A DNA stretch of 64,000 bases from contig NZ_CP040106.1 in NCBI RefSeq assembly GCF_005281475.1, positions 1,865,501 through 1,929,500 of the forward strand, given 5' to 3'. The position numbers and the translations under genes were made by a program. This DNA is from Echinicola rosea (GTDB lineage: Bacteria > Bacteroidota > Bacteroidia > Cytophagales > Cyclobacteriaceae). This document shows, one piece after another, positions 12,129-31,908 of the stretch (positions within the stretch are counted from its first letter, which is position 1; the number at the start of each line of letters is the position of its first letter). The notes under the pieces are model-generated. The model worked only from the letters and a program-made list of their open reading frames with translations. It was not told the origin of the DNA and did no database searches.

Positions 12129-12177
12129 CCTGAGTTTTTAGGTCTTGGATAGAGGATTTTAGACAATAGATTTTTAG

Positions 12178-12212
12178 AAAAGGGAAAGCCAATAATCTGA
12201 CTTTCCCTTTTT
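12178..12212 (+). terminator. Probable Rho-independent terminator after the TIM-barrel gene
   Basis: Arms AAAAGGGAAAG and CTTTCCCTTTTT surround a 12-base loop. The 3' arm ends in a run of T, as expected for plus-strand termination before the MaoC operon. Confidence 0.6.
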
Positions 12213-12403
12213 ACATGTGGACGAGCATTTACTCAAGGTTTAAGTTTCCATCATCGGCCAACCTTTGTAGCCTTTCAATATTTCAACTTTTAATACCCAT
12301 GATACCACAGGAAGGTGTTTTCACACAGGAAAGTAACTTTATCGATGTATTTAAATAATGAATGACAGCTGTTGATCAATTGTCGTAAACCAAATAGCCT
12401 ATC

Positions 12404-12844
12404 ATGTTCATAAAAAAATATTACGAAGAATTTGAGTTGGAAGAAAGCAGGGAGACGCTTGGCCGGACCATCACCGAGACAGATATCGTGATGCACGCAG
12501 GACAAACGGGAGATTTTTTTCCACATCATATGGATGCAGAATGGTGCAAAACCCAGCCGTTCAAAGAGCGCATAGCGCACGGGACCTTGATCTTTTCGGT
12601 GGCGGTGGGCATGACCGCTCAAGTGATCAATGAAGTGGCCATGACCTATGGCTATGAAAGGCTCCGGTTTACCAAGCCTGTTTTTATTGGTGACACGATA
12701 AGGGTAAACGTATCGATCAAAGACAAAAAGGACCACAAAAGACCAAAATATGGCCTCGTCACGGAGTTGGTGGAGGTGTTTAACCAAAAGGACGAACTGG
12801 TAATGCTCTGTGAGCATATTTTATTGACCGAAAAGAAAAAATAA
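12404..12844 (+). CDS. MaoC-like hot-dog dehydratase
   Basis: 146-residue single hot-dog-fold protein of the MaoC/(R)-specific enoyl-CoA hydratase family, cytoplasmic. The hydratase-2 Asp/His pair is present as D37 and H42 in TGDFFPHH, followed by the family AHG motif (IAHGTLIF). These enzymes add or remove water on 2-enoyl-CoA thioesters. The gene starts a tight operon: 9 bp separate it from the solute-binding-like gene, which is followed by two family III CoA-transferases. The context therefore supports chemistry on an acyl-CoA made by transfer of CoA from another thioester. The acyl group is unknown. Confidence 0.8.
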
Positions 12845-12853
12845 ATAGAGATC

Positions 12854-14017
12854 ATGGCAAAGAAAATACTAAAAGGGATGACTTGGGGGCATAGCAGAGG
12901 GATATCTCCCTTGCAGGCTTTTGCCCAGCGGTTTAACCAACTCTATCCTGATATAGAAATCCAATGGCGGCAACGGACCTTGCAGGAGTTTGCCGATTAT
13001 CCAATAGAAAAACTGACAGAAACGTACGATTTGCTCATCATTGACCACCCTTGGGTGGGCTGCGCTGCGGCGACCAATTGCGTATTGGCACTTGATGAGC
13101 ATTTGCCTGAACAGTTTTTGGAAAATCAGGCTGAAAATCACGTGGGAAGGTCGCATCAAAGTTACCATTATGGAGGGCACCAGTGGGCACTGGCCATCGA
13201 TGCGGCTGCTCCAGTGCCCAGCTTCCGAAAGGATTTATTGGATGAGAATGGTACGAAGGTTCCCAAGAACTGGGAGGAGGTGATGGCTTTGGCCAAGCGA
13301 GGAAAAGTGGCTGCTCCTGCCATACCCATTGATCTGCTGATGAATTTTTATATGTTTTGCCAAGCGCATGGTCAGGAGCCCTTTCTGAGTACCGAGCAGG
13401 TCATCGATAAACCAACAGGACTGAAAGCTTTGGAGACGATGAAGGCCTTTTACAGCCTGCTGGACAGAAAACTGTTTGATGCCAATCCCATTCGTGTAGC
13501 TGAATACATGTCCATGGGAAATGAATATTGGTACTGTCCTTTTGCTTATGGTTATTCCAATTATGCACGGGATGGTTACAGTGACCATTTGTTGACCTAT
13601 GGCAATTTAGTGGACTTTGTTCCCGGGAAGAAATTGAGGAGTACCATTGGAGGGACAGGGTTGGCGGTTTCTGCTTTTTGTGAGCATAAAAAGGAAGCAT
13701 TGTCTTTTGCGCAGATGATCATGTCCGAAAAATACCAGTCCACTGAGTACGTGCTCAATGGCGGTCAACCTGGGCATCGTAAGGCTTGGCTGAGTGAGCA
13801 GGCCAATACCATTTCCCATAATTATTTTAAAAATACCCTAGACTCATTGGATGCGTCCTACATGCGTCCAAGGTACAATGGCTACCTGTATTTTCAGGAC
13901 CATGCGGGGGATCCTATCCGGGAGTACATGATGGGAGAGAGCAACCCAGAGGCAGTCCTTGACCGCATCAATGAACTATATCAAGCTTCCCAGCGACCTG
14001 TTGCCCATGAGTCTTGA
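12854..14017 (+). CDS. Family 1 solute-binding-protein homologue without export signal
   Basis: 387 residues resembling the sugar-type extracellular solute-binding proteins of ABC importers: two alpha/beta lobes with recognisable patterns such as YDLLIIDHPW, ALAIDAAAPVPSFRKDLL and GGTGLAVSAF. The N terminus (MAKKILKGMTWGHSRG) has no hydrophobic core and no lipobox cysteine, so it should stay in the cytoplasm. No ABC permease or ATPase gene lies in the window. The gene overlaps the next CoA-transferase gene by 11 bp and follows MaoC by 9 bp, so it is translationally embedded in a CoA-thioester operon. A cytoplasmic ligand-sensing or enzyme-partner role is possible, but this is inference. Confidence 0.75.
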   Translation: MAKKILKGMTWGHSRGISPLQAFAQRFNQLYPDIEIQWRQRTLQEFADYPIEKLTETYDLLIIDHPWVGCAAATNCVLALDEHLPEQFLENQAENHVGRSHQSYHYGGHQWALAIDAAAPVPSFRKDLLDENGTKVPKNWEEVMALAKRGKVAAPAIPIDLLMNFYMFCQAHGQEPFLSTEQVIDKPTGLKALETMKAFYSLLDRKLFDANPIRVAEYMSMGNEYWYCPFAYGYSNYARDGYSDHLLTYGNLVDFVPGKKLRSTIGGTGLAVSAFCEHKKEALSFAQMIMSEKYQSTEYVLNGGQPGHRKAWLSEQANTISHNYFKNTLDSLDASYMRPRYNGYLYFQDHAGDPIREYMMGESNPEAVLDRINELYQASQRPVAHES

Positions 14018-15170
14018 GAGCACGAAAAAACTCCAACGCTTGCCGCTGGAAGGGGTGATGGTGCTGGAATTTTGCCAGTATCTATCAGGTCCTTCCGCAG
14101 GGCTAAGGCTGGCAGATCTCGGGGCGAGGGTCATCAAAATAGAAAATCCCGGCAAAGGCGATCTTTGTCGGATCCTTCCGATCAAAAACCAGTGGATAGA
14201 GGAGAGTTCACTGCTTTTCCATACGATCAATAGAAACAAGGAAAGTTATACGGCCAATCTCAAATCAGCAACCGAACTGGCTGATATCAAAAAGCTGATC
14301 AAAAAAGCGGACGTAATGATGCATAATTTTCGCCCGGGTGTGATGGAAAAACTCGGGCTGGACTATGGATCAGTGAGTGCGGTTAATCCTGGACTTGTTT
14401 TTGCCGAGATCAGCGGATACGGAGCAGAAGGGCCTTGGGCACGAAAGCCCGGACAAGACCTCTTGCTCCAGGCGATGAGCGGCCTGATGTATGCCAGTGG
14501 AAACCAGCTGGATGGGCCTATGCCATTTGGACTGGCGATTGGGGATATGCTCTGCGGGGCTCAGGCGGTACAGGGGATTTTGGCCGCCTTGGTACACCGA
14601 AAGAGGACGGGCAAAGGCAGCAAGATTTCGTTGAGTTTGTTGGAGTCGTTATTGGATATGCAGTTTGAGGTGCTGACGACCTACTTTGCTAGCGGAAAGC
14701 GACCGCTCCGCTCCGCGGTAAATGGCGCCCATGCATTATTGGGAGCTCCTTACGGGATTTATTGCACCAAGGACAGTCATTTGGCCATTGCGATGATCCC
14801 TATTTTATCCCTCCGGGAGGCATTGGGTTGTGCAGGTCTGGATCCGTATGACCAGTCGATGGTGTTTTCGCATCGCGACGAGATCAAGCAGGTGTTGGCT
14901 GATTTTCTTAAGACCGAAACGACCAGTTATTGGCTTGAAAAGCTTCGGAAAAGTGGCCTTTGGGCTATGGACGTCAAGGACTGGAAGCGCTTGAAGGAAT
15001 CGGATGGCTACCGACATGCAGCACTGGAGCAATCTCTGAAATTGACCAATGGTCAGTCTATCAAAACAAATCGCTGCCCGATTAGGATAGACGGAAAAGT
15101 GCTGTTCAGTGAAAAGCCTGCACCGGGATTGGGCGAGCATACCGCGTTAATCAAAGAAGAATTTAAATGA
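14007..15170 (+). CDS. Family III CoA-transferase (CaiB/BaiF type), first copy
   Basis: 387 residues from the ATG at 14007, which overlaps the stop of the previous gene by 11 bp; an upstream in-frame TTG at 13959 is a less likely start. Family III transferases move CoA between carboxylic acids using an aspartyl-CoA intermediate. The N-terminal block (VMVLEFCQYLSGPSAGLRLADLGARVIKIE) and the catalytic region PGQDLLLQAMSG with D151 are clear. A second, related transferase follows 86 bp downstream. The substrate is unknown; neighbours imply a sugar-derived or hydroxylated acid. Confidence 0.85.
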   Translation: MSLESTKKLQRLPLEGVMVLEFCQYLSGPSAGLRLADLGARVIKIENPGKGDLCRILPIKNQWIEESSLLFHTINRNKESYTANLKSATELADIKKLIKKADVMMHNFRPGVMEKLGLDYGSVSAVNPGLVFAEISGYGAEGPWARKPGQDLLLQAMSGLMYASGNQLDGPMPFGLAIGDMLCGAQAVQGILAALVHRKRTGKGSKISLSLLESLLDMQFEVLTTYFASGKRPLRSAVNGAHALLGAPYGIYCTKDSHLAIAMIPILSLREALGCAGLDPYDQSMVFSHRDEIKQVLADFLKTETTSYWLEKLRKSGLWAMDVKDWKRLKESDGYRHAALEQSLKLTNGQSIKTNRCPIRIDGKVLFSEKPAPGLGEHTALIKEEFK

Positions 15171-15256
15171 TCCATTGGCATCCAAGATCCCCTGCGTCTG
15201 GCCATGTTTATTATTGACCAATAATCATCCAATAACTCATCATTCTCGAACCAACT

Positions 15257-16399
15257 ATGTCATTATTAAAAGGAATTACGGTTATCGACTTCTCCCAATT
15301 CTTGTCCGGTCCCTCCGCAAGCTTGCGGTTGGCGGATTTTGGCGCGCGGGTGATCAAGGTCGAAAAGCCAGTGACTGGGGATATCTGCCGGCAGCTGTAT
15401 GTTTCCGAGGTGAAAATAGCCGAGGAATCCACCATTTTCCACACGATTAATCGGAACAAGGAGAGTTTTGCCGCAGACCTGAAAAATAAGGAAGACCAAG
15501 AAGCCATTTGGAAACTGATCAGCTCGGCAGATGTAGTGATGCACAACTTCCGTCCAGGTGTAATGGCACGATTGGGCTTTTCATATGACGAGGTAAAGGC
15601 AGTGCATCCAGAAGTCATCTATGCTGAAATCAGCGGCTACGGCCAAGATGGTCCATGGGCAGACTTGCCCGGGCAGGACCTGTTGCTTCAGGCAATGACA
15701 GGCTTGCCCCATCTCAATGGAGAGCAGGAAAAAGCTCCCACGCCCATGGGGATTTCGGTGGTGGATTTATTGGCGGGAACCCAATTGGCACAAGGGATTT
15801 TGGCAGCTTTGTACCAAAAAGAAGAAACCGGCCAAGGGAGTTTGGTACAAGTGAGTATGCTGGAGTCAGCGATGGATTTTCAGTTTGAGGTGTTTACCAC
15901 CTTTTTGAATGACGGGGAGGAGTTGCCCCAGCGAAGCTATTCCAACCATGGTCATTGCTACATCGCAGCTCCCTATGGGGTTTATGCCACTAAAGATGGC
16001 TATTTGGCCTTGGCAATGGGGGATATTGTCACGTTAGGAGGGCTATTGAAATGCGATGATTTGGCCGTTTTTGATGATCCGAAAGGATGGTTTGATCGGC
16101 GCGATGAGATCAAAGCATTGCTGGCAGCTCATCTGATCACCCAAGATACCCGGCATTGGCTGGATATATTGGAGCCAGCGGATATTTGGTGCGCGAAGGT
16201 GCTGGACATGGAAGCAATGATGGAAGAAGAAGGCTATCAGATCTTGGAAATGGAGATGGAGGTCAAGACCACTCATGGCGACCGTATAAAAACTACACGG
16301 TGCCCTGTACGGGTGAATGGTGAGCGATTAACGCCAGAGCGGGGCGCACCGTTTTTGGGAGAGCATAATGATGCCATAGTTCGGGAGTTTGGCCTGTAA
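15257..16399 (+). CDS. Family III CoA-transferase (CaiB/BaiF type), second copy
   Basis: 380 residues, ATG start. It is colinear with the preceding transferase: both share SQFLSGPSAxLRLADxGARVIK-type N termini, FHTINRNKES, MHNFRPGVM, AEISGYG and PGQDLLLQAM, with D141 here as the probable catalytic aspartate. The two are diverged enough to be functionally distinct, so they may form a hetero-oligomer or use different acids. The protein is cytoplasmic and the length normal. It probably closes the MaoC / binding-protein-like / CoA-transferase operon. Confidence 0.85.
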   Translation: MSLLKGITVIDFSQFLSGPSASLRLADFGARVIKVEKPVTGDICRQLYVSEVKIAEESTIFHTINRNKESFAADLKNKEDQEAIWKLISSADVVMHNFRPGVMARLGFSYDEVKAVHPEVIYAEISGYGQDGPWADLPGQDLLLQAMTGLPHLNGEQEKAPTPMGISVVDLLAGTQLAQGILAALYQKEETGQGSLVQVSMLESAMDFQFEVFTTFLNDGEELPQRSYSNHGHCYIAAPYGVYATKDGYLALAMGDIVTLGGLLKCDDLAVFDDPKGWFDRRDEIKALLAAHLITQDTRHWLDILEPADIWCAKVLDMEAMMEEEGYQILEMEMEVKTTHGDRIKTTRCPVRVNGERLTPERGAPFLGEHNDAIVREFGL

Positions 16400-16593
16400 G
16401 GTAATCGGAGGAGTAGCTAGTAAACAGGAAAAACCAATTAGTGTCAAGTCAAACCTGCTTTGACGCATTACTACTACTACCGCGTCCCTGACCTGCCTCG
16501 GTGGGACGTTCCTGTGCGCTGGACACCCACGCCACGGGCAGAGTGGTGAGCAAAGGAGAGTGTCATTTAACCTTTAACTTAACATTAGTAAGC

Positions 16594-17445
16594 ATGAACA
16601 TCATTGATACACATATTCACATCTGGGATTTCGGAAGGGCTGAATATGCCTGGCTGGAAGGCGATACTTCTATTTTGAAGCAAAATTATCATTTAGAAGA
16701 CTTGGAAGAAGAGCGCAAGAAGGCCGGGATTACAGCGGGAATTTTGGTGCAGGCAGCCAATAATTTTGAAGATACCAATTGGATGCTCGAAAATGCCGCT
16801 GCCCATGACTGGATCAAGGGCGTGGTGGGATGGATGCCGCTGATGGATCCTGATGCCACTGCACAGGCACTGGAAGGGCATTATCTAAACAATCCCTATT
16901 TCCGGGGAGTGCGGCACCTGATCCACGAAGAGCCCGATCCAAAGTGGCTGCTACAGCCAGCTGTGCTGGAGAGCTTAAAGCTGCTGGCCGACCATAGCCT
17001 CACTTATGACCTGGTAGGGGTGTTGCCGGAACATATTGATACGGCACTGAAAGTGGCGAAAAAAGTACCCGATCTGAAAATGGTCTTTGATCACCTCAAC
17101 CAACCTCCGATCAAGGAGGGGCTCCATTTTGGAGAGTGGGGCAATAAAATGCGCGAAGCTGCCGAACATCCGCAATTCCATGTAAAAATCTCCGGGATGG
17201 GCACTACATCCGGAAAACTGTTTGAATGGGGGCGATACGATATTTTACCTTATGTCGAATTTGTTTTGGACACTTTCGGTATGCATCGCTGCTTTTGTGG
17301 AGGGGATTGGCCAGTCTCGCTATTGGCAGGCAGTTATGAATATTCTTGGAAACGCTATCGAGAAGTGTTGGAAACGCTTTTGTATGAAAAAGAACAGGGC
17401 AAGGTCTTGTATGACAATGCATTGGAATTTTATGGGATCAAATGA
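16594..17445 (+). CDS. Amidohydrolase-2 (COG3618), lactonase-like
   Basis: 283 residues from the ATG at 16594; the frame is open further upstream but that part is not protein-like and the family begins with MNIIDTHIHIWD. Metal-site residues of the TIM-barrel amidohydrolases are visible: H7 and H9 (HIH), H167 (FDHLNQP) and D238 (GGDWP). COG3618 contains L-rhamnono-1,4-lactonases and L-fuconolactone hydrolases, which open sugar lactones to sugar acids. A RhaT-type transporter comes next and a Gfo/Idh dehydrogenase follows it, so an oxidise-to-lactone then hydrolyse route is plausible. Exact substrate not determined. Confidence 0.8.
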   Translation: MNIIDTHIHIWDFGRAEYAWLEGDTSILKQNYHLEDLEEERKKAGITAGILVQAANNFEDTNWMLENAAAHDWIKGVVGWMPLMDPDATAQALEGHYLNNPYFRGVRHLIHEEPDPKWLLQPAVLESLKLLADHSLTYDLVGVLPEHIDTALKVAKKVPDLKMVFDHLNQPPIKEGLHFGEWGNKMREAAEHPQFHVKISGMGTTSGKLFEWGRYDILPYVEFVLDTFGMHRCFCGGDWPVSLLAGSYEYSWKRYREVLETLLYEKEQGKVLYDNALEFYGIK

Positions 17446-18922: not shown

Positions 18923-19954
18923 ATGAAAATTCAACTTATCGGGGCAGGAGGCATTGTGAAGGACGCGCATTTGCCGGCGTACAAAATCGCCGGATATGAA
19001 GTAGAAGGGATCTTTGATCTTAATAAAGAGAAGGCCACCGCGCTGGCCAATGCGTTTGGAATACCGACTGTGTTTTCTTCGCTGGAGGAATTGGTGACCA
19101 AGGCTGGCCAAGACACGATTTTTGATGTGGCCGTACCGGGGAGCGCTGTGCTTCAGGTATTGGAAAAGCTTCCAAAAGGATCGGTGGTCTTGATTCAGAA
19201 ACCTATGGGAGAAGACCTTAAGGTCGCCAAAGCCATTCTGGACCTATGCAGGAAGAAGCAGCTAAAGGCCGGTGTCAATTTTCAGATGCGCTATACACCT
19301 TTTATTCAGAGAGCACGGGAGATCATCCACTCTGGCTTAATAGGGGAGTTGTGCGATATCGAAATCAAAATCAATGTCTATACTCCCTGGCATTTGTGGG
19401 ATTTTCTTTTTTCGGCAGATCGAGTGGAAATTTTGTATCACAGTATCCATTATGTGGATTTGATCCGGTCCTTTTATGGCAATCCTGAAAAAGTATATGC
19501 CAAGACCATCAAGCATCCCAAAATGGCACAATTGGCATCGGTCAAGACCAATATCATCATGGATTATGGAGACTTGAAAGGAGCCAATATCCTGACCAAT
19601 CATGCCCATGAGTTTGGCCTGAAGCATCAACAGTCGTATGTGAAATTGGAAGGGACCAAGGGAGCCATCATGATCGAAATGGGTCTTTTGAAGAATTATC
19701 CAAAAGGTGCTGCGGACAAATTTGAATATGTGGTGCTGGAAGAAGGAAAAGCTCCAGAGTGGCAGGAAGTACCGATCGAGGGAACCTGGTTCCCACATGC
19801 TTTCATAGGGGCCATGGCAGAGATGAAAAAGACGTTGGAAAATCCGGCATATATTCCTGACAACAGCGTGGAAGATTGCATCCATACCATGGCCTGCGTG
19901 GAGGCCGCACACCAATCCAGCGAGCAGGGAGGGGTGGAACTGTCCACGGATTGA
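18923..19954 (+). CDS. Gfo/Idh/MocA-family NAD(P)-dependent dehydrogenase
   Basis: 343 residues from the ATG at 18923; a TTG-initiated extension upstream is unlikely because the Rossmann motif GAGGIVKDAHLP begins right after MKIQLI. An N-terminal nucleotide-binding domain is followed by the family alpha/beta sheet domain. K93 (QKPMGED, the EKP-type motif) and H176 (YHSIHYVDLIR) occupy the catalytic positions. These enzymes oxidise sugars, polyols or sugar acids; D-apiose dehydrogenase is, to my recollection, also of this family. It is the first of a plus-strand series with the RuBisCO-like protein and kinase, separated from them by a hairpin-rich gap. Confidence 0.85.
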   Translation: MKIQLIGAGGIVKDAHLPAYKIAGYEVEGIFDLNKEKATALANAFGIPTVFSSLEELVTKAGQDTIFDVAVPGSAVLQVLEKLPKGSVVLIQKPMGEDLKVAKAILDLCRKKQLKAGVNFQMRYTPFIQRAREIIHSGLIGELCDIEIKINVYTPWHLWDFLFSADRVEILYHSIHYVDLIRSFYGNPEKVYAKTIKHPKMAQLASVKTNIIMDYGDLKGANILTNHAHEFGLKHQQSYVKLEGTKGAIMIEMGLLKNYPKGAADKFEYVVLEEGKAPEWQEVPIEGTWFPHAFIGAMAEMKKTLENPAYIPDNSVEDCIHTMACVEAAHQSSEQGGVELSTD

Positions 19955-20170
19955 CAGGAATGGTAGCATGATGGACTTCGACTCCGCTCCGGTTGTACCA
20001 AGTCCCAAGTCTCTGACTTGGTACAATGAAACATTGAGTCTCCGACGCAAAAACATATTATAGTCCCGTGTCACAGACAGCGGGAAAATTGGGGCAAGTT
20101 TTCAAACTTGAACCAATCTTTAAATCCACAAAGCAGGTAAGTTCAGGATGCTGATATAAAGTGTCTTAAT

Positions 20171-20178
20171 TACATTTG
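20171..20178 (+). promoter_or_regulatory. Promoter -7 box candidate for the RuBisCO-like operon
   Basis: TACATTTG matches the Bacteroidota -7 consensus TAnnTTTG. A clear TTTG box about 20 bp upstream is missing, so the call is weak. It would give a leader of about 95 nt containing the hairpin at 20205. Confidence 0.35.
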
Positions 20179-20204
20179 TCATAATAGGGTTTTATTAGGT
20201 TTTT

Positions 20205-20242
20205 AAGTAGGATGGGAGGATTTCTCCCGTCTTACTTTTTTT
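20205..20242 (+). terminator. Terminator- or attenuator-like hairpin in front of the RuBisCO-like gene
   Basis: Arms built on AAGTAGGATGGGAG and CTCCCGTCTTACTT pair around a GATTT loop and run into TTTTTTT. It lies 36 bp before the ATG of the RuBisCO-like gene and downstream of the TACATTTG box. It either ends readthrough from the dehydrogenase gene or acts as an attenuator. Confidence 0.55.
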
Positions 20243-20278
20243 ATCACCAACCTAGACACCTTTTCCCTCCTTTATTTT

Positions 20279-21523
20279 ATGGAAAGAATTTCAGCAACAT
20301 ACTATATCGAAACGCCCTTTACAGTGGAAGCGGCAGCGGAAGTATTGGCAGGAGAGCAGTCATCAGGGACTTTTGTGGCGGTGCCGGGTGAAACGGCTGA
20401 ACTGAAGCAGCGTTTTGCTGCTCGTGTAGAGTCCATCGAGAAGTTGGAAACCGTCAGTCAGCCTGCCATTCCTGGGGCAGTATCGAAAAACAGCACGTAC
20501 CAACGGGCGATGATCACCGTTTCCTGGTCCATCGAAAACTTCGGCTATAACCTGCCGACGATGGTATCGACATTGCAGGGAAATCTCTATGAAATTACCC
20601 AGTTTACGGGGCTGAAGTTGATGGACATAGAGGTTCCGGCATCTTTTTCGAAGCACTTCACTGGGCCGGCATTTGGGATAAAAGGCTGTAGGGAATTGAC
20701 AGGAGTGGAAGCGGGGAGACCTTTGATCGGGACGATCATCAAGCCAAGTATCGGAATGAGTCCAGAAGAGACTGCCGGGTTGGTCGAGACTTTGGTGGAA
20801 GCTGGGATTGATTTTATCAAAGACGATGAACTGATGGGGGCAGCGGCCAATTCTCCATTTGAGGATCGGGTGACCGCCGTCATGAAGGTGATCAATAGCC
20901 ATGCCGATAAAACGGGAAAAAAGGTAATGTATGCCTTTAATATATCGGATGAAATAGACCTGATGCAGCGCAATTACGACACTGTATTGCAGCATGGAGG
21001 CACTTGTGCCATGATGAGCATCAACAGCGTTGGCTTGGCGGGCGTGAAGAAAATTTGCGACCGTAGGGAGCTGGCCGTCCATGCCCACAGAAACGGTTGG
21101 GGAATGCTCAACAGGCATCCGCTGCTGGGCATAGATTTCCGGGCATACCAAAAGCTGTGGAGACTGGCAGGTGTGGATCAGCTCCATGTAAACGGCATTC
21201 AGAATAAATTTTGGGAATCGGATGATTCGGTAGTCCGGTCGATAGAAGGTTGTCTGGCACCGATGCTGGGAGGATATCAGGTGCTGCCGGTGGTTTCTTC
21301 CGGCCAGTGGGGAGGCCAGGCACCAGAGACGTACCGTCGGACGAAAACTACCGATTTGCTTTACATGGCAGGTGGCGGCATTATGGCACATCCTGCCGGC
21401 CCTGCCGGAGGAGTAAAAGCCTTGCAGCAGGCATGGAAGGCAGCGGTGGAAGGACGTTCGGTACAGGAGGCAGCAGCGATGTATGAGGAATTTGGATTGT
21501 CTGTACAGAAATTTGGGAAATAA
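20279..21523 (+). CDS. RuBisCO-like protein (RLP)
   Basis: 414 residues of the RuBisCO large-chain superfamily, cytoplasmic. The metal-binding KDDE motif is intact (K181, the lysine carbamylated in RuBisCO, with D183 and E184, in GIDFIKDDELMG). The first active-site lysine is present (K155, in GTIIKPSIG) but the second lysine of KPK is serine. H268 and H270 lie in VHAHRNG. A loop-6-like lysine, K310, lies in GIQNKFWES. The phosphate-binding SSGQWGG and GGGIMAHPAGPAGG loops are present. Changed residues and the absence of a small subunit argue against CO2 fixation. The kinase gene starts 2 bp later, an arrangement like OiaK with OiaX or OiaT, where an RLP decarboxylates or cleaves 3-oxoisoapionate 4-phosphate. 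Other RLP functions, such as methionine-salvage enolase, fit the context less well. Confidence 0.88.
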   Translation: MERISATYYIETPFTVEAAAEVLAGEQSSGTFVAVPGETAELKQRFAARVESIEKLETVSQPAIPGAVSKNSTYQRAMITVSWSIENFGYNLPTMVSTLQGNLYEITQFTGLKLMDIEVPASFSKHFTGPAFGIKGCRELTGVEAGRPLIGTIIKPSIGMSPEETAGLVETLVEAGIDFIKDDELMGAAANSPFEDRVTAVMKVINSHADKTGKKVMYAFNISDEIDLMQRNYDTVLQHGGTCAMMSINSVGLAGVKKICDRRELAVHAHRNGWGMLNRHPLLGIDFRAYQKLWRLAGVDQLHVNGIQNKFWESDDSVVRSIEGCLAPMLGGYQVLPVVSSGQWGGQAPETYRRTKTTDLLYMAGGGIMAHPAGPAGGVKALQQAWKAAVEGRSVQEAAAMYEEFGLSVQKFGK

Positions 21524-21525
21524 AT

Positions 21526-22920
21526 ATGCGAGAAGGAGCATCTCCATTACTACTGGCCTATTATGGCGATGATTTTACCGGCTCATCCGATGCACTGGAT
21601 TTTTTGAGCAAAGCGGGTGTGAAGACCGTGTTGTTCATAGCGCCTCCATCCCCGGGACAATTGGCAAAATATAAAGGAATTCAGGCCATTGGTATTGCCG
21701 GAATGACCCGCTCCATGGGGCCATCGGCAATGGGAAAAGAACTTCAAGAAGCATTCATAGCCTTAAAAAAATCAGGCGCTCGCCAGGTGCATTATAAAGT
21801 CTGTTCTACCTTTGATTCTTCGCCTGAAATTGGCAATATCGGCAAGGCGGTGGAAGTGGGGTTGCGCGTATTTCAAGCGCCTTACGCCTCTCTTTTGGTG
21901 GCGGCACCTGAACTAGGCCGCTATTGTGCTTTTGGTAACTTGTTTGCCCGGATGGGCATCGGGAGCAAAGGGGAAATCCATCGCCTAGACAGGCATCCTT
22001 CCATGAGCAAGCACCCGACCACGCCAGCGAATGAAAGCGACTTGCGCCTTCATTTGTCCAAGCAGACCGATTTGAATATCGGATTGGTGGATTTGCTGGA
22101 GGTGGAAAGCGGTGGGGATGTGCTGGATGATGCCTTAAAACGTGAGCTAAAGGCCGGTGCGAAGGTGGTGCTTTACGATGCGATGTATTCCCGCCAGCTG
22201 ACCGAGATAGGACGAATGCTTGATCAAGCAGGTAAGGAAAAAATTCATTTTTCCGTAGGATCATCGGGTATAGAGATGGCTTTGGGGGCTTTCTGGAAGA
22301 CTAACAATACGCTTCAGGGCCAGAAGACTTGGGAAAAACCTGCAAAGGCTTCGCCCATGCTGGTGCTATCAGGGAGCTGTTCCCCGGTCACTGAAGGACA
22401 GATAGCCTATGCAAGGATGCATGGATTTGATGAAATAGCCTTGGATCCAAGGAAGCTGGCAGCAGTCCCCAAGCTGACCCAAAACTACGCTGAAAGTGCT
22501 GTTCAGATGATGAAGGCCGGAAAAAGTGTCATCGTCCATACCGCTTGTGGAGCGGAAGACTCCAGGAGGAAGGCGACAAGGGAAGTACTGGTCAAACAAG
22601 GCATTTCTCCAGAAGATGTCAATGCCAAAACTGCAGATTTTTTTGGAACAGCATTAGGGGAAATTGCCCGTAAAGCAGCTGAGCAATTTCCCTTTAAAAG
22701 GCTCTTGATTGCAGGAGGAGACACTTCCAGCAAAGTGGCCAGAGTCCTTGGAATAGAGGCTGTCGAAATGCTCGCCCCTTTGGTGCCAGGAGCACCATTG
22801 TGCAAAGCCCATGCTCCCAACTCTCCCATTGACGGAAAAGAGGTCAATTTCAAAGGAGGCCAAGTAGGTGCGGAAGATTACTTTGTGAAGGTGATGGAGG
22901 GGAGGATGAATTTGGAATGA
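21526..22920 (+). CDS. DUF1537 four-carbon acid sugar kinase family protein
   Basis: 464 residues with the two-domain DUF1537 fold. The N-terminal substrate-binding domain opens with YYGDDFTGSSDAL (D15, D16), the family signature. The C-terminal nucleotide-binding domain has LSGSCSPVTEGQI and a LLIAGGDTSSKVARVLG loop. Family members phosphorylate erythronate, threonate or 3-oxoisoapionate. The gene begins 2 bp after the RuBisCO-like stop codon, so they are translationally coupled and probably act in sequence, the kinase giving a phosphorylated oxo-acid to the RLP (inference). Length and motifs are normal. Confidence 0.87.
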   Translation: MREGASPLLLAYYGDDFTGSSDALDFLSKAGVKTVLFIAPPSPGQLAKYKGIQAIGIAGMTRSMGPSAMGKELQEAFIALKKSGARQVHYKVCSTFDSSPEIGNIGKAVEVGLRVFQAPYASLLVAAPELGRYCAFGNLFARMGIGSKGEIHRLDRHPSMSKHPTTPANESDLRLHLSKQTDLNIGLVDLLEVESGGDVLDDALKRELKAGAKVVLYDAMYSRQLTEIGRMLDQAGKEKIHFSVGSSGIEMALGAFWKTNNTLQGQKTWEKPAKASPMLVLSGSCSPVTEGQIAYARMHGFDEIALDPRKLAAVPKLTQNYAESAVQMMKAGKSVIVHTACGAEDSRRKATREVLVKQGISPEDVNAKTADFFGTALGEIARKAAEQFPFKRLLIAGGDTSSKVARVLGIEAVEMLAPLVPGAPLCKAHAPNSPIDGKEVNFKGGQVGAEDYFVKVMEGRMNLE

Positions 22921-23017
22921 TGAATAAAGTACCAAGCCTAATCCGTCATAGTGGGTAGCTGGTAGTAAGATAGAGCAAAGAGTATAGAGCAAAGAATAAA
23001 GAAGAACACACCGTGTT

Positions 23018-23066
23018 GTGCTGGGCCTCCGTCCCAGCACTAATAGAATTGAGTCTCCGACTCAAT
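23018..23066. repeat. Two-hairpin repeat module
   Basis: 23018-23040 is GTGCTGGG with a CCTCCGT loop and CCCAGCAC. 23048-23066 is ATTGAGTC TCC GACTCAAT. It is the same module as at 2608 and 28133, in the gap after the kinase gene. Confidence 0.6.
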
Positions 23067-23093
23067 AATATAGAAACGCAATAACCATAAAAC

Positions 23094-23750
23094 ATGAAAA
23101 CATTAGGACTTATTCACACTTCAGCCACATTGGTACCGATTTTTCAGGCACTTTGTGATGAACATTTGCCGGGGGTAAAGGTATTCAATATTGTAGATGA
23201 CAGCCTGATCAAAGATGTCATCAGCAAAGGAAAGCTCACGCCCCATACCGCAAGAAGAGTGGTCGATTACGTAGGTTCGGCCGAGGCGGCTGGGGCCGAT
23301 CAAATCATGGTGACCTGTTCTTCTATCGGGGCAGCCGTGGAGGCAGCGGCCGGCTTGACCCAAGTGCCCGTGCTTCGTGTGGATCAGCCCATGGCGGACT
23401 TAGCGGTCCAGACGGGGGTAAAAATCGGAGTGGTAGCCACCTTGCCCACGACATTGGAACCGACTTCCGATTTGGTGAGGAGAAGGGCTGATGTGCTGGG
23501 AAAAGATATCGTGTTGACTTCCAAACTGTGTGAGGGGGCTTTTGAAGCCTTGATGGGCGGTTCTCCTGACAAGCATGATGAAATGGTGGCCAATGCTCTG
23601 AAAGAACTGGCCTCTGAAGTGGATGTTATTCTCTTGGCGCAAGCCTCCATGGCCAGGGTCGTGGAAAAGCTCGATGAAGCAGACAAAAAGATTCCCATCG
23701 TGGCCAGTCCGCCTGAATCGGTGAGATACTTGGCGCGGAGCATGAAATAG
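23094..23750 (+). CDS. Asp/Glu racemase-fold protein with one catalytic cysteine
   Basis: 218 residues of the aspartate/glutamate/hydantoin racemase superfamily, cytoplasmic. The N-terminal catalytic cysteine is C75 in MVTCSSIG. In the second half, where racemases carry a second cysteine in an LxCTE-like loop, this protein has LLAQASM (A182 to S185); another cysteine, C146 in KLCEG, is not in an obvious equivalent place. Losing one of the two cysteines usually means a non-racemase activity, such as decarboxylation or isomerisation. Position between the RLP/kinase pair and a carboxylate carrier suggests a role with a branched or dicarboxylic acid (inference). Confidence 0.75.
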   Translation: MKTLGLIHTSATLVPIFQALCDEHLPGVKVFNIVDDSLIKDVISKGKLTPHTARRVVDYVGSAEAAGADQIMVTCSSIGAAVEAAAGLTQVPVLRVDQPMADLAVQTGVKIGVVATLPTTLEPTSDLVRRRADVLGKDIVLTSKLCEGAFEALMGGSPDKHDEMVANALKELASEVDVILLAQASMARVVEKLDEADKKIPIVASPPESVRYLARSMK

Positions 23751-23817
23751 AACCATTAAGCTGATTCCAAACCTCCAAACCTGATAACATTCCACCCTTA
23801 ACCCAATAACCTAACCC

Positions 23818-25128
23818 ATGCAGCGGATTCGGAAGTTTCTATTATTCAGTTTACCTGTCATCTTCATCATTTTTAGCATTGCCTTGACGATGGGATTCAC
23901 CGATGTCTGGAAAATCAGTGCAGTAGCCTGCAGTGGGGCATTTTCGGTGGGGCTTGGTGCTTCCAAGCGGTTTGGTGGGTACCAATATACCGCATGGATC
24001 GTGACCGCCGTAGTAGCAGGGATGGTTTATCCGAATGCCTTTTTGCAGTGGGGTGAGATCGATTTACGAAACAAATGGTTGATCTTGATTGTCGTGCAGG
24101 CAGTGATGTTTGGGATGGGAATACAGATGAGCTTGCGAGATTTTTCTAATTTGGCCAGCACAGGAAAAGGTGTTTTGGTGGGGTTGCTTAGCCAGTTCAG
24201 CATCATGCCACTAGTGGGCTTTTTGCTGACCAAGTTGTTTGATTTTGATCCGGAGATTGCCGCAGGCATTATCCTGATGGGAGCCTGCAGCAGTGGCTTG
24301 GCGTCAAATGTGATGGTGTATTTGGCTCGTGCAAATTTAGTGCTTTCGGTGACGGTGACCGCGATGGCGACCATGCTGGCGCCGCTGATGACGCCTTTTT
24401 GGATGAAGACGCTGGCGGGGACATTGATCGATATTAAGTTTCTGGATATGATGTTCAATATCATCAAAATTGTACTCGTGCCCATAGGAGCTGCCTTACT
24501 GCATGATTACTTGAAGATGGCAGGAAAAGGAATGAAAAACCGTATTTATGTGCTAGCAACGCTTTTTCTTGTTTACCTGCTGGCATTACCTCTGGGGCTT
24601 TGGCAAGTCTTTGTGGACATGTTTCCAGCAGAAACCTTACAGTCCGTGGAAATTTTGAGCTTTTTTGTGGGAGCAGTAGTGTTTGGTGCAGGCTATCATT
24701 TATGCACACGCCAATTTAAAAACTTGGATAAACTGATGCCTTATATTTCGATGTTTGGCATTGTGTATTTTACTACGGTAACCACTGCTGCCGGCAGGGA
24801 CAATCTACTGCAAGTTGGAGGGCTGCTGTTTATGGCATCGGTGATACATAATGGATTGGGCTATTTCTTTGGCTACTGGTTCAGTAGGTTGCTTGGCTTG
24901 GGCATTCCTTCCGCCAGGGCCATGGCTTTGGAAGTAGGCCTCCAAAATGGAGGGATGGCTTCTGGCCTCGCCGGCTCAATGGGCAAGCTGGGGACAGTGG
25001 GCTTGGCTCCGGCGGTGTTCAGTCCATGGATGAATATCACGGGGTCTATTTTGGCCAATTATTGGCGAAAGAAGTCCATGAAAGAAAATGCTGGGATTGG
25101 AAAATTTAAGGGGAATGATACGCCTTGA
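23818..25128 (+). CDS. Bile acid:sodium symporter (BASS) family transporter
   Basis: 436-residue inner-membrane protein with about eleven or twelve hydrophobic segments, two of them forming an N-terminal extension before the BASS core. Core signatures are visible: IILMGACSSGLASNVMVYLA (about residues 150-170), the unwound-helix region in transporters of this fold, and MALEVGLQNGGMASGLA (about residues 365-380). BASS proteins import organic anions such as bile acids, pyruvate and pantoate with sodium. Following the RLP, kinase and racemase-like genes, it probably brings in, or exports, the carboxylate these enzymes handle. Substrate not determined. Confidence 0.83.
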   Translation: MQRIRKFLLFSLPVIFIIFSIALTMGFTDVWKISAVACSGAFSVGLGASKRFGGYQYTAWIVTAVVAGMVYPNAFLQWGEIDLRNKWLILIVVQAVMFGMGIQMSLRDFSNLASTGKGVLVGLLSQFSIMPLVGFLLTKLFDFDPEIAAGIILMGACSSGLASNVMVYLARANLVLSVTVTAMATMLAPLMTPFWMKTLAGTLIDIKFLDMMFNIIKIVLVPIGAALLHDYLKMAGKGMKNRIYVLATLFLVYLLALPLGLWQVFVDMFPAETLQSVEILSFFVGAVVFGAGYHLCTRQFKNLDKLMPYISMFGIVYFTTVTTAAGRDNLLQVGGLLFMASVIHNGLGYFFGYWFSRLLGLGIPSARAMALEVGLQNGGMASGLAGSMGKLGTVGLAPAVFSPWMNITGSILANYWRKKSMKENAGIGKFKGNDTP

Positions 25129-25321: not shown

Positions 25322-26419
25322 ATGAATTCTGTACAAAAATTTAGTCAAATGATCCGCGTTTTCCTGTTGTCTTTTTGTTTTTTAATCTTTTGTAATAGCA
25401 CCATTGCCCAGACCGAGGGTGATTCCGTCATCCAGGTAGGATTTACAGGCTCCCAGCCTTTTGTTATTCCGGGTACGGATTCCGAAGGTATTTCAGTGGA
25501 TTTATGGAGAGAGGTGGCGTTTCAAGGAGACTTGAATTATGAGCTGACCCACTTCAAGAATGTAACTGCAGGCCTTGATGCGGTCAAGAGTCAAACGGTG
25601 GATGTATTGGTAGGCCCCATAACTATAAATTCTGATCGTGCCGCTAATGTGACATTTTCACAACCGTTTTTTGAGACAGAGATGGCCATATTGGCACCGA
25701 AGATCGAGCAAGGTTTTTGGGATTATGTCAAGCCGATTTTCAGCACCACTTTTCTTTTTGGGGTGCTGGGGCTATTTTTTTTACTTTCTATTGTGGGCGT
25801 CCTGCTGTGGGTGGTGGAGCGAAAAACCCTTACCCCGGAAGGGAAAAACGGCACCGTCCGAGGAATCGGAAATGGCATCTGGCTGGCCATTGTGACGATG
25901 ACCACCGTTGGGTATGGGGATTTTGCCCCTAGGACTCTTTCTGGCCGGGTCATCGTGGGGATATGGATGATCGTTTCCCTGATTACAGCGACGTCCTTTG
26001 TGGCGGGCATCGCCACGACCATTTCCCAGATCAAGGGCGAAGATGAGACCATTACCTCCCTTCTTCATTTGGAGGGCAAAGAAGTGGCTGTGCCCGATAA
26101 TGAAAAGATCATTGATAACATCACCACTGTGGGAGGCAGACCTACGCCAGTAAGCAATATTGACGAAGGGTTTGATCGACTGGCAAATGGGGAAGTAGAT
26201 GCGCTGGTATATGATGTGATTGCACTGGAATACACTTTTAATCAACATGGAGGGGATGAATTTGTCCTTAGCAAAAAGAATATCCTTCCCCAAAATTATG
26301 GATTTGCCTTTTTTGAGGCCACCAGTCTGAAAAAATTGGTTGATATCGAAATCCTAAAGCTCAAAGAATCCGGTGAAATCCAAAAAGTCATTGACAGGTG
26401 GGTCAATAGCGGTGAGTAG
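25322..26419 (+). CDS. GluR0-like ionotropic receptor / ligand-gated potassium channel
   Basis: 365 residues with the layout of prokaryotic ionotropic glutamate receptors: signal peptide (to about residue 30), ligand-lobe S1 (about 35-138), membrane helix M1 (about 142-166), pore loop, membrane helix M2 (about 209-233) and ligand-lobe S2 (about 240-360). The pore carries the potassium-selective filter TVGYGD (T195-D200). S1 contains VGPITINSDR with R106, matching the arginine that binds the alpha-carboxyl of amino-acid ligands in this superfamily. It should sit in the inner membrane with its ligand domain in the periplasm. It is monocistronic, after a 193-bp gap. The ligand is unknown. Confidence 0.85.
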   Translation: MNSVQKFSQMIRVFLLSFCFLIFCNSTIAQTEGDSVIQVGFTGSQPFVIPGTDSEGISVDLWREVAFQGDLNYELTHFKNVTAGLDAVKSQTVDVLVGPITINSDRAANVTFSQPFFETEMAILAPKIEQGFWDYVKPIFSTTFLFGVLGLFFLLSIVGVLLWVVERKTLTPEGKNGTVRGIGNGIWLAIVTMTTVGYGDFAPRTLSGRVIVGIWMIVSLITATSFVAGIATTISQIKGEDETITSLLHLEGKEVAVPDNEKIIDNITTVGGRPTPVSNIDEGFDRLANGEVDALVYDVIALEYTFNQHGGDEFVLSKKNILPQNYGFAFFEATSLKKLVDIEILKLKESGEIQKVIDRWVNSGE

Positions 26420-26918
26420 TTGTTGGTTTTTTTCCAGAATCTAAGACATCGAAAAAGAATAGCGTAAGGATTTGATAACCACATTAGGGGGGATGCATCT
26501 AATCAGCTTGCTGTACCTTCAGTGCTTTTGTTGGATCAATAGGGTGCCCCCAAGCCACCAAGACGCTAACTTTTCAGGAATATAACAGACCAAGTACACG
26601 AAAAACCCCAATCCACCCCCTTCGTTACTTCGTGTCTTCGTGGCAAAAAGGTAAGCCCCCAAGCCACTAAGACGCTAAGTTTTCAGGGATAACAGACTAA
26701 GTACACGAAAAGCTCCAATCCAAACCCCTTGTATCTGGATTCAGGATTGCAAATCCTGAATAGCTCGGAGCAACTACCTTCTAACATTCAAACCTTCCCA
26801 CTTGCTAACCCAGGGTTAACTCCCAACACCATGATAGCACAGGAAGGTAAAAACAGGGTGTTTTGTAATTTTATTGAGCAAAATGAGAAGTCCGCTTTGG
26901 GCAATTTCAATAAACTCG
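26420..26918. other. Intergenic stretch with a tandem duplication and a REP-like hairpin
   Basis: 26546-26654 and 26655 to about 26735 are imperfect tandem copies of a unit starting GCCCCCAAGCCAC(C/T)AAGACG, joined by a CTTCGTGTCTTCGTGGC block. A hairpin with AGGATTGCAAATCCT follows at 26743-26757. No gene is supported. Confidence 0.5.
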
Positions 26919-28079
26919 ATGATGAATAGACAAATAACCTTCCTGTTTTTCTTTGCCCTGTTGATAGGGTTAGGAAGCAGCTGCTCCTCTGAAAAATCCA
27001 ATCAATCCACTTCTTCCAAAAAGGCAACCTTGCCGGCAGTGACCGATTCGGTGATGCAACAGGTTTATGAGGAGGTCAAGACTCCCCATAAATACGGTTT
27101 GGTGAAAATCCCGCCAAGCAACGATTTGAAAATGGATTGTCCCAGCATTTTCAGGGAAGGGGGCAAATGGTACATGACTTACCTGATTTATGGCGGGCGC
27201 GGCTATGAGACCTGGCTGGCCGAAAGTGATGATCTACTGCACTGGGAGGACAAGGGGAAACTCATGTCCTTTTCAGATACTACGGATTGGGATATGAACC
27301 AAAAGGCCGGATATATCGCACTCCAGGACATGGAATGGGGCGGAAGCTATGAATGGGATACTTACGAGGGAAAGCATTGGATGAGCTATTTTGGGGGCAA
27401 TACTCGTGGCTATGAAGCTGGTGTGCTATCCATTGGAATGGCCTATACAGACCAAGACCCGACGACAGCCCACGAATGGCAGCGGATCGAAAAGCCGGTC
27501 TTGACCCCCCATGATGAAGATGCACGTTGGTGGGACAATAGCACCATGTACAAAAACTCCATTATTCGGGATGAGCATGAGTTTACCGGACACCCTTTTA
27601 TCATGTACTATAATGCCCGCGGTGACAGTATCAATCCCGGTAAAGGTGCCGAAAGAATTGCCATGGCCGTGTCGGATGACATGGTCCATTGGGAGCGTTA
27701 TGGTGATGCCCCGCTGATCAACCATCACAAGGGCATTTCCGGTGACGCCTATATCCAGCAGATGGGGGGGCTTTACGTGATGTTTTACTTTGGTGCTTTT
27801 TGGCCGGACAGGGAGAATACAACTGCCTTTAACCGATTTGCTGTTTCCAACAACTTGGTGGATTGGGTGGACTGGGAAGGAGAAGACCTGATCAGCCCTT
27901 CTGAGCCTTATGATAATTTATTTGCCCATAAATCTTTTGTGGTCAAGCACGACGGAGTGGTTTACCATTACTACTGTGCGGTCAATAAGGACGGCCAGCG
28001 GGGCATTGCAGTGGCCACTTCCAGGGATCTCGGTATAAGTGAACTGGAGTTTCTTCCTCTGGAAGGGGAAAAGAAATGA
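26919..28079 (+). CDS. Lipoprotein five-bladed beta-propeller glycosidase (GH43/GH130-like)
   Basis: 386 residues from the ATG at 26919, chosen because the signal peptide begins there (MMNRQ, a hydrophobic stretch, then GLGSSC lipobox); in-frame starts upstream would only lengthen the N terminus. The body repeats propeller-blade patterns such as DCPSIFREGGKWYMTYLIYGG, GYETWLAESDDLLHW, RIAMAVSDDMVHWE and NLVDWVDWEG, as in GH43, GH32 and GH130-type enzymes. Acidic residues D(CPS), D(NSTM) and E(RIAM) are candidates for the active site but I cannot assign them. It precedes the LacZ-type gene and is probably part of the same glycan-degrading set, lipid-anchored at the cell envelope. Confidence 0.7.
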   Translation: MMNRQITFLFFFALLIGLGSSCSSEKSNQSTSSKKATLPAVTDSVMQQVYEEVKTPHKYGLVKIPPSNDLKMDCPSIFREGGKWYMTYLIYGGRGYETWLAESDDLLHWEDKGKLMSFSDTTDWDMNQKAGYIALQDMEWGGSYEWDTYEGKHWMSYFGGNTRGYEAGVLSIGMAYTDQDPTTAHEWQRIEKPVLTPHDEDARWWDNSTMYKNSIIRDEHEFTGHPFIMYYNARGDSINPGKGAERIAMAVSDDMVHWERYGDAPLINHHKGISGDAYIQQMGGLYVMFYFGAFWPDRENTTAFNRFAVSNNLVDWVDWEGEDLISPSEPYDNLFAHKSFVVKHDGVVYHYYCAVNKDGQRGIAVATSRDLGISELEFLPLEGEKK

Positions 28080-28238: not shown

Positions 28239-31529
<3,291 letters not shown>

Positions 31530-31908
31530 AGAATCAAGACTGATTAGGGTTTAGGAGGGTGAAAAAGTAGCAAGTACCAAGACGTGAGTATCAAGAGCCA
31601 AGATTCCTCCCCTTAAAGGGGAGGTTAGGAGAGGTTTTAATAGAGCGAAGAAATCCACCCATTGCGCGCCAGTATGATGAAATGGAGTTCTTTTAACTCC
31701 GTTAATTGAGCTAGAAGCTCAACTATTGAAATGCCGAGGCTCAGCCTGCGGCATAACCAAGGAGAGTGTCTAAAAAGTCCCCCTTTTAGGGGGATTCAGG
31801 GGGTGAGCTGTTCGGGATTTGTAATCCCGAACAAGAAATAAAGGTGGATTACAAATCCACCCGTAACTAGTAAAATAACCGGCATGAATGCCTAAAATTT
31901 TAAATCTA
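31530..31908. other. Intergenic repeat cluster
   Basis: No gene supported up to the chosen start of the GH106-like gene. It contains CAAGTACCAAGA-type words, the palindrome CCTCCCCTTAAAGGGGAGG at 31606-31624, a CCCCCTTTTAGGGGG motif near 31779 and two REP-like hairpins (31813-31829 and 31843-31861, the second GGTGGATTACAAATCCACC). Confidence 0.5.

Follow-up and report, generated by a model that had tools for sequence, protein, structure and literature searches.

The chemistry of OiaX, OiaK and OiaT in D-apiose catabolism was reportedly worked out by Carter et al. in 2018. The substrate of the kinase OiaK is 3-oxo-isoapionate, HOCH2-CO-C(OH)(COOH)-CH2OH; OiaX decarboxylates 3-oxo-isoapionate 4-phosphate, OiaT acts on the latter as a transcarboxylase/hydrolase, and ApnO and erythrulose-phosphate isomerases function in the apionate route. 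The reactions of the three Oia enzymes are partly covered in PMC6302742. Here we describe a related set of genes in a 64,000-nucleotide stretch of Echinicola rosea DNA (the window; contig NZ_CP040106.1, positions 1,865,501 to 1,929,500), from a host genome that consists of one contig of 6.06 Mb. The set encodes a RuBisCO-like protein (RLP), a DUF1537 kinase, a protein of the Asp/Glu racemase fold and a BASS carrier. These four genes form a real, widespread and uncharacterised module, and our analysis makes it somewhat probable that the module is a pathway for L-aceric acid from side chain B of rhamnogalacturonan II (RG-II).

The RLP module and its relatives

The four genes lie on the forward strand of the window. 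The RLP gene (20279 to 21523; 414 aa; 216 bits on RuBisCO_large PF00016) is followed by the kinase gene (21526 to 22920; 192.8 bits on PF07005 and 120.4 bits on PF17042), the racemase-fold gene (23094 to 23750; PF01177) and the carrier gene (23818 to 25128; 106 bits on SBF PF01758), with gaps of 2, 173 and 67 bp between them. The first-pass annotation, made from the letters of the window, had placed the RLP stop 2 bp before the kinase start, and this holds, with the kinase ATG at 21526. We compared this set with the best 80 (of at least 80) loci from a scan of GTDB species genomes, with RLPs at 64–85% identity, and with one Rufibacter plasmid, giving 81 loci. Genes were called as longest open reading frames (ORFs), a procedure by which genes may be missed or start too early. 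An RLP ORF was called in 78 of the 81 loci (all except L038, L106 and L109), and loci with such an ORF and 4.5 kb or more of DNA downstream of it, 69 in number, were taken as testable. Genes for the kinase, the racemase-fold protein and the carrier were all present in 67 of these by tblastn and in 66 by ORF clusters; in L108, clustering overlooked the racemase gene, which tblastn recovered. The kinase gene directly adjoins the RLP gene on the same strand in 60 of the 69 loci, and a BASS gene is present in 68. The racemase-fold protein and the carrier had been described at first as not being standard partners of such a pair, a view that these counts overturn for this RLP clade. Hosts of the module are chiefly Bacteroidota, with Fodinibius, several Verrucomicrobiota and one planctomycete besides. 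The module is also carried by metagenome-assembled genomes labelled Akkermansia muciniphila (L110) and Williamsia sp. (L111), which are probably mis-binned, judging by their place in the tree and their neighbours.

The nearest named relatives of the window RLP are from Echinicola, with 89% identity to that of E. strongylocentroti, and database entries name RLPs of the module clade 'ribulose-bisphosphate carboxylase'. The motifs to which the first-pass annotation drew attention (K155-P-S157, K181-D-D183-E184 and K310) were all confirmed. In an alignment of 79 RLPs, which includes that of the window, KPS is found in all 79 and K155, K181, D183, E184, H270, R271, H303 and K310 are invariant (RuBisCO equivalents assigned by motif). 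The RuBisCO motif at the position of KPS is KPK. A true RuBisCO was rejected on this replacement and on a score of 233.7 bits with the type III model TIGR03326 (cut-off, 497), and an MtnW enolase of methionine salvage was rejected on a score of 138.2 bits with TIGR03332 (cut-off, 513.6). On the OiaX equivalog model NF042437 the window RLP scored 514.5 bits, under the cut-off of 700; Rhizobium etli OiaX scored 785.5 bits with the same model library. A tree was built with 22 of the 79 module RLPs; four distant RLPs on extreme branches (L010, L011, L018 and L029) were left out. All 22 fell on one side of a branch with support of 96/96, with R. etli OiaX and the 14 RLPs taken from other operons on the opposite side, and were placed apart both from R. 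etli OiaX and from the RLPs of ApnO operons. With a midpoint root, OiaX is a possible sister group of the module clade. Eighteen alignment columns separate the module RLPs from five RLPs of apionate operons. The KPS motif was given little weight because ApnO operons and several others also have RLPs with it; it occurs in all four ApnO operons without TIM or RpiB hits, and KPA is found in R. etli OiaX and in its relative L152.

The kinase, with both DUF1537 domains over cut-off, is a member of that family (four-carbon acid sugar kinases), and it scored 414.4 bits on the OiaK model NF042436, under the cut-off of 700. This cut-off is strict, since the R. etli oiaX operon, too, has a kinase that scores under it (475.7 bits). 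The third protein has the Asp/Glu racemase superfamily fold, as indicated by PF01177 over cut-off and by a fold match. In alignments to allantoin and hydantoin racemases it keeps the first catalytic Cys (C75); unlike aspartate and allantoin racemases, it has a Gln (Gln183) at the second, and it does not have the two Cys of the two-base Asp/Glu racemases. Arylmalonate decarboxylase keeps only the other Cys. The protein had been called single-Cys, which is right for the catalytic pair and wrong for the protein as a whole, where a further Cys, C146, is conserved. The carrier resembles PanS and other BASS carriers in its SBF match but differs from PanS in scoring 190.3 bits on the PanS model NF047939, under the cut-off of 400. 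In four of seven plasmid regions (L142–L145, of L139–L145), a relative of the racemase-fold protein has a DUF1537 kinase no more than 8 kb away; the hosts of this group are Pseudomonadota, Actinomycetota and haloarchaea. One such region, on a plasmid of the haloarchaeon Natronosalvus rutilus (L143), has RLP, DUF1537 kinase, VOC and SDR genes with the racemase-fold relative. Other RLP-DUF1537 pairs were seen on proteobacterial plasmids (L146, L150, L151, L153, L154 and L155), where they occur with TRAP or other carriers and with SDR or VOC proteins and would represent additional RLP pathways.

The module resembles OiaK and OiaX in its RLP-DUF1537 pair, which has the same order and nearly touches, and in the retained metal/carbamate and loop-6 residues. 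It differs from them in scoring under both cut-offs, in the separate grouping of its RLPs, in having KPS where R. etli OiaX has KPA, and in possessing a racemase-fold protein and a BASS carrier instead of an ABC importer. The module is a new variant among RLP/DUF1537 pathways, and the suggestion, made in the first-pass annotation, of a variant branched-sugar-acid pathway in Bacteroidota is supported, the system being found mainly in that phylum.

RG-II-type genes around the module

Parts of PMC8565777 indicate that glycoside hydrolase family 127 (GH127) spans several activities, and GH127 copies were typed by model for this reason. A GH127 gene is present in the fetched flanks (up to 10 kb a side) of 35 of the 81 loci. 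In 21 of the 78 loci with a called RLP ORF it lies 0–124 bp upstream of the RLP gene, among others in Sphingobacteriaceae, Chitinophagaceae, Flavobacteriaceae, a Flectobacillus and a Fodinibius. The host copy is found just beyond the window, 45 kb downstream from the RLP gene. It scored 1118.5 bits on NF049879, 'aceric acid hydrolase' (cut-off, 950), and its best match in the PDB is 5mqo, which is BT_1003 (839 bits; next structure, 394). BT1003 is an aceric acid hydrolase according to parts of PMC5698469 and PMC10850190. The 35 flank copies are 46–63% identical to the host copy; of 10 that were scanned with NF049879, 7 were over the cut-off and 3, from one planctomycete and two Verrucomicrobiota, scored 899–943 bits. 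The host has four other clear GH127-family genes, whose products are 23–27% identical to the hydrolase copy over 233–431 residues. A DUF5703 protein (L125:5755-8091) adjoins the host hydrolase, and in 15 loci the module has a DUF5703 cluster in its vicinity; the DUF5703 protein is possibly an uncharacterised RG-II enzyme.

Co-occurrence was examined in 395 genomes of the class, in which GH127 was sought with the host protein; NF049879 was run on 21 chosen genomes. The RLP clade (at least 72% identity) was found in 5 of the 395, and three more genomes have only distant RLPs (about 30%) and no hydrolase-like GH127. A hydrolase-like GH127 (at least 818 bits) was present in 12 genomes, with the next best matches at 551 bits or less. 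PF24067, the BT_1020-like domain, which we take to mark the RG-II enzyme GH143, was over cut-off in 12 genomes and gave weak, sub-threshold matches in three more. The same 12 genomes make up both sets and include every one of the 5 genomes with the RLP clade, which is absent from the remaining 383. For RLP and hydrolase the hypergeometric P value was 1e-8, or 1e-7 by genus, both values ignoring shared ancestry. Three further RLP-clade genomes from a phylum sample have the hydrolase as well, so that it is over the NF049879 cut-off in eight of eight RLP-clade genomes. In all eight it is on the contig of the RLP, 36 bp to 54.5 kb away; in the three that belong to one genus (Flavobacterium) the distance is 45–55 kb. 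In the host, a BT_1020-like (GH143-type) gene was seen at G000:C1:1318504-1319211; since this is about 0.57 Mb from the module locus, a second RG-II locus in the host genome is likely.

Glycoside hydrolase clusters of other RG-II types also occur near the module (GH137-like in 15 of the 81 loci, GH141 in 12, GH143 in 7 and GH140 in 3). At least one of GH127, GH137, GH143, GH141 and GH140 is found in 45 of the 81 loci and in 37 of the 62 full-length ones. The setting resembles that of the RG-II enzymes of Bacteroides thetaiotaomicron, as relatives of BT1003 and others are present in the same genomes and often in the same loci; BT1020 is presumably GH143 and BT0996 presumably GH137/GH2. It differs in that those enzymes release monosaccharides, whereas the module would metabolise one inside the cell. 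It might be argued that the module and the hydrolase share nothing but residence in pectin loci, with an unrelated role for the module and GH127 nearby by chance. Glycoside hydrolase genes in general abound in module loci, and 7 of the 12 hydrolase genomes are without the RLP clade; hence, the hydrolase does not require the RLP, which marks a subset of RG-II degraders. Against chance stand the 0- to 124-bp gaps in 21 loci across several families and the presence of the hydrolase within 55 kb of the RLP in all eight genomes, and we regard this explanation as very improbable.

Candidate substrates

Aceric acid is 3-C-carboxy-5-deoxy-L-xylose. As a written formula, its C2 ketose is HOCH2-CO-C(OH)(COOH)-CHOH-CH3, which is 3-oxo-isoapionate plus one methyl group. 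Moving a single carbonyl is therefore enough to make a homologue of the OiaK substrate from aceric acid, with no redox step. Among the RG-II sugars listed in parts of PMC6353982, aceric acid is the sole branched sugar with a carboxyl on the branch carbon. From the chemistry and the gene context, a redox-free route fits a module in which a racemase-fold protein and a protein of an anion-carrier family are near-constant and no dehydrogenase is constant, and L-aceric acid, the best supported of the candidates, is probably the substrate. In the route that we propose, GH127 and companion enzymes would free aceric acid, a step for which the hydrolase, beside or near the module, is supported at the level of the model. 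The BASS carrier would then import it. The racemase-fold protein, with its one catalytic Cys, may shift the carbonyl from C1 to C2 to give the ketose; no dehydrogenase would be needed here because the carboxylate is already on C3. The kinase, by analogy with its family, would phosphorylate the hydroxyl on C1, like OiaK acting on 3-oxo-isoapionate, and the module would thus share with OiaK and OiaX the chemistry of a beta-keto branched acid phosphate. The RLP could act in either of two ways. If OiaX-like, it would yield CO2 and 5-deoxypentulose 1-phosphate, from which an aldolase would form dihydroxyacetone phosphate and acetaldehyde; if OiaT-like, it would yield 3-phosphoglycerate and lactate.

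We lean slightly towards the OiaT-type outcome, because no dedicated aldolase or isomerase was seen conserved beside the module. The sharing of KPS with the four ApnO operons without TIM or RpiB may also favour it weakly. The likeness to OiaT possibly lies in the type of reaction; the module has operon partners different from those of OiaT. A fuller proposal is that the module is a complete cytoplasmic pathway for L-aceric acid, made up of one carrier and three enzymes with no dehydrogenase, in which a one-base aldose-ketose isomerase, of a kind that supplies DUF1537 kinases in general with beta-keto acids, precedes an RLP that forms 3-phosphoglycerate and lactate. This joint reading is tentative, and we hold it to be somewhat unlikely as a whole. 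Among the matches listed in a search of the open-access literature, outside which most subscription papers lie, no description of the bacterial fate of aceric acid was found.

The first-pass annotation had pointed to apionate and 3-oxo-isoapionate. A route of this kind would begin with D-apiose from RG-II, which the Gfo/Idh dehydrogenase would oxidise and the lactonase-like enzyme hydrolyse before an unrecognised replacement for ApnO rearranged the product for the kinase and RLP. OiaK and OiaX are indeed the closest characterised relatives of the module proteins, and OiaX may be the sister group of the RLPs. Apiose is also an RG-II sugar, according to part of PMC12282258. Apiosidase-type clusters occur in four loci, and a dehydrogenase, a lactonase-like gene and RhaT lie upstream of the module in the window, L033 and L103. 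However, tblastn (E of 1e-3 or less) gave no hit for ApnO, ApnL, TIM or RpiB in the 81 module loci. ApnO and ApnL were also not found in the eight whole module genomes searched, a weaker result, since control genomes gave no match either. The ApnO query came from L113 and the ApnL query from L116; we take the R. etli gene to be ApnO from PF16896 and its operon, and the ApnL label rests on NF049900. By blastp the same queries match ApnO in L115, L116, L148 and L149 and ApnL in L115 and L116. The annotated ApnO-type plasmid operons L113, L115, L116 and L149 have an ABC importer and a Gfo/Idh gene; in L113, where the RLP exceeds the OiaX cut-off, TIM and RpiB genes are present as well. Counting against this argument from context, L152, a Sinorhizobium fredii plasmid stretch whose RLP has KPA and is 69% identical to R. 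etli OiaX, shows no ApnO, TIM, RpiB or adjacent kinase. The L152 RLP gene sits between aldo/keto reductase and oxidoreductase genes. Apiose, moreover, is neutral and BASS carriers move anions; it would have to be oxidised and rearranged, and the module has no constant dehydrogenase; and the directly adjacent hydrolase is of the aceric acid type, with no apiosidase in that position. Apionate is unlikely because the RLPs form their own clade, score under the OiaX cut-off and have no ApnO or ApnL found beside them, and we consider the D-apiose route as set out here improbable.

Another acid of RG-II or pectin, such as a tetronate or an unknown branched acid, might be degraded instead; the racemase-fold protein would then be an epimerase or an OtnI-like 2-oxo/3-oxo isomerase. 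Related RLP-kinase pairs on other replicons have TRAP carriers, SDR or VOC proteins, and these varied partners suggest that the RLP group probably has several substrates. Relatives of the racemase-fold protein lie near OtnK/OtnC-type genes, and GH127, GH137, GH143, GH141 and GH140 clusters are all missing within 10 kb in 25 of the 62 full-length loci. All eight RLP genomes, in contrast, contain the aceric acid hydrolase, whose gene immediately precedes that of the RLP in 21 loci, and tetronate pathways are known to use class II aldolase-type decarboxylases, not RLPs. We view another acid as rather unlikely.

Several observations weigh against the aceric acid pathway, beyond the full-length loci without RG-II clusters and the hydrolase genomes without the RLP clade. 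L049 has no kinase beside the RLP, and L048 is without all three partners. The apiosidase (GH140) cluster occurs in three loci and a weaker-matching one in three, and association with RG-II by itself cannot tell aceric acid from apiose. Three of the seven plasmid regions with relatives of the racemase-fold protein show no DUF1537 kinase, and we know of no precedent for an aldose-ketose isomerase in the Asp/Glu racemase fold. The chemistry of the OiaX and OiaT types is not told apart by this analysis.

Neighbouring genes and biological meaning

A Gfo/Idh/MocA dehydrogenase gene (18923 to 19954, forward strand; 50.5 bits on PF01408) had been placed in one unit with the module. It ends 324 bp before the RLP gene, with a terminator-like hairpin in the gap (20205 to 20237, forward strand; 15 pairs, 6 of them GC, then a T-run), and its cluster occurs in 10 of the 81 related loci plus the window. 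The dehydrogenase is probably a separate unit, a neighbour rather than a core part. A consensus scan showed no excess of terminator-like sites in the region over shuffles (8 versus 7.6), and the promoter and terminator scans were at chance level overall. Window genes within 7000–36000 entered the neighbour counts, and families were typed from one or a few members per cluster. The four Gfo, SDR and ADH clusters that were counted occur in 27 of the 81 loci, a figure that leaves out rarer clusters. The lactonase-like enzyme and RhaT are present in the window as first described, but few loci share them (L033 and L103 for both; L093 also for the lactonase-like gene, at 29% identity), and both genes are probably outside the module. 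The Gfo/Idh dehydrogenase, the lactonase-like enzyme, RhaT, CoA transferases and MaoC were each rejected as a core component, since most module loci lack it nearby.

The start of the lactonase-like ORF (16501–17445) is probably at 16594 rather than at the GTG at 16501. Upstream of it, 11247–16399 holds in series a Pfam-less protein (11247–12128), a MaoC hydratase, an SBP_bac_1 protein and two class III CoA transferases; a signal peptide is not obvious in the SBP_bac_1 solute-binding-type protein, and L033, L052, L103 and Pedobacter-type loci have parts of the same set close to the module. An intergenic repeat with the core GAGTCTCCGAC occurs at 20036, 23051, 2642 and 28167 (two exact copies and two with one mismatch, versus 0.3 expected). 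Directly 3' of the BASS gene, 25322–26419 encodes a ligand-gated ion channel-like protein (SBP_bac_3, Lig_chan and Ion_trans_2). Farther downstream, all on the forward strand, are genes for a stand-alone GH137-like protein (26874 to 28079; 535 bits on residues 15–359 of the 1400 of NF049877), a GH2 protein of the beta-galactosidase type (28287 to 31529; 987 on NF052611 versus a cut-off of 999), a GH106 alpha-L-rhamnosidase (31888 to 35370; 566.5 bits on PF17132) and a SASA-family carbohydrate acetylesterase (35556 to 36986; 58.9 bits on PF03629). The NF049877 model protein is a two-domain beta-glucuronidase/beta-L-arabinofuranosidase with a whole-model cut-off of 1800, and the window protein has the GH137-like domain alone; the GH137 activity modelled by this match is that of an RG-II beta-L-arabinofuranosidase. 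Read against the order of RG-II chain B, the GH137-like, GH106 and GH2 proteins are chain-B-type enzymes. A GH141-type protein is encoded in the stretch just upstream of the window (L127).

The plant pectin RG-II is very complex, and the hydrolase releasing its aceric acid is already known. If our proposal is true, the module would let plant-degrading bacteria feed on aceric acid, a rare, branched cell-wall sugar acid. A large clade of RLPs would gain a substrate and the RuBisCO fold an added reaction, which, in the version that ends in 3-phosphoglycerate and lactate, would be a third RLP-dependent sugar-acid reaction. The Asp/Glu racemase fold would likewise gain a new kind of reaction, and the group of such proteins encoded near DUF1537 kinases may then have an isomerase role.

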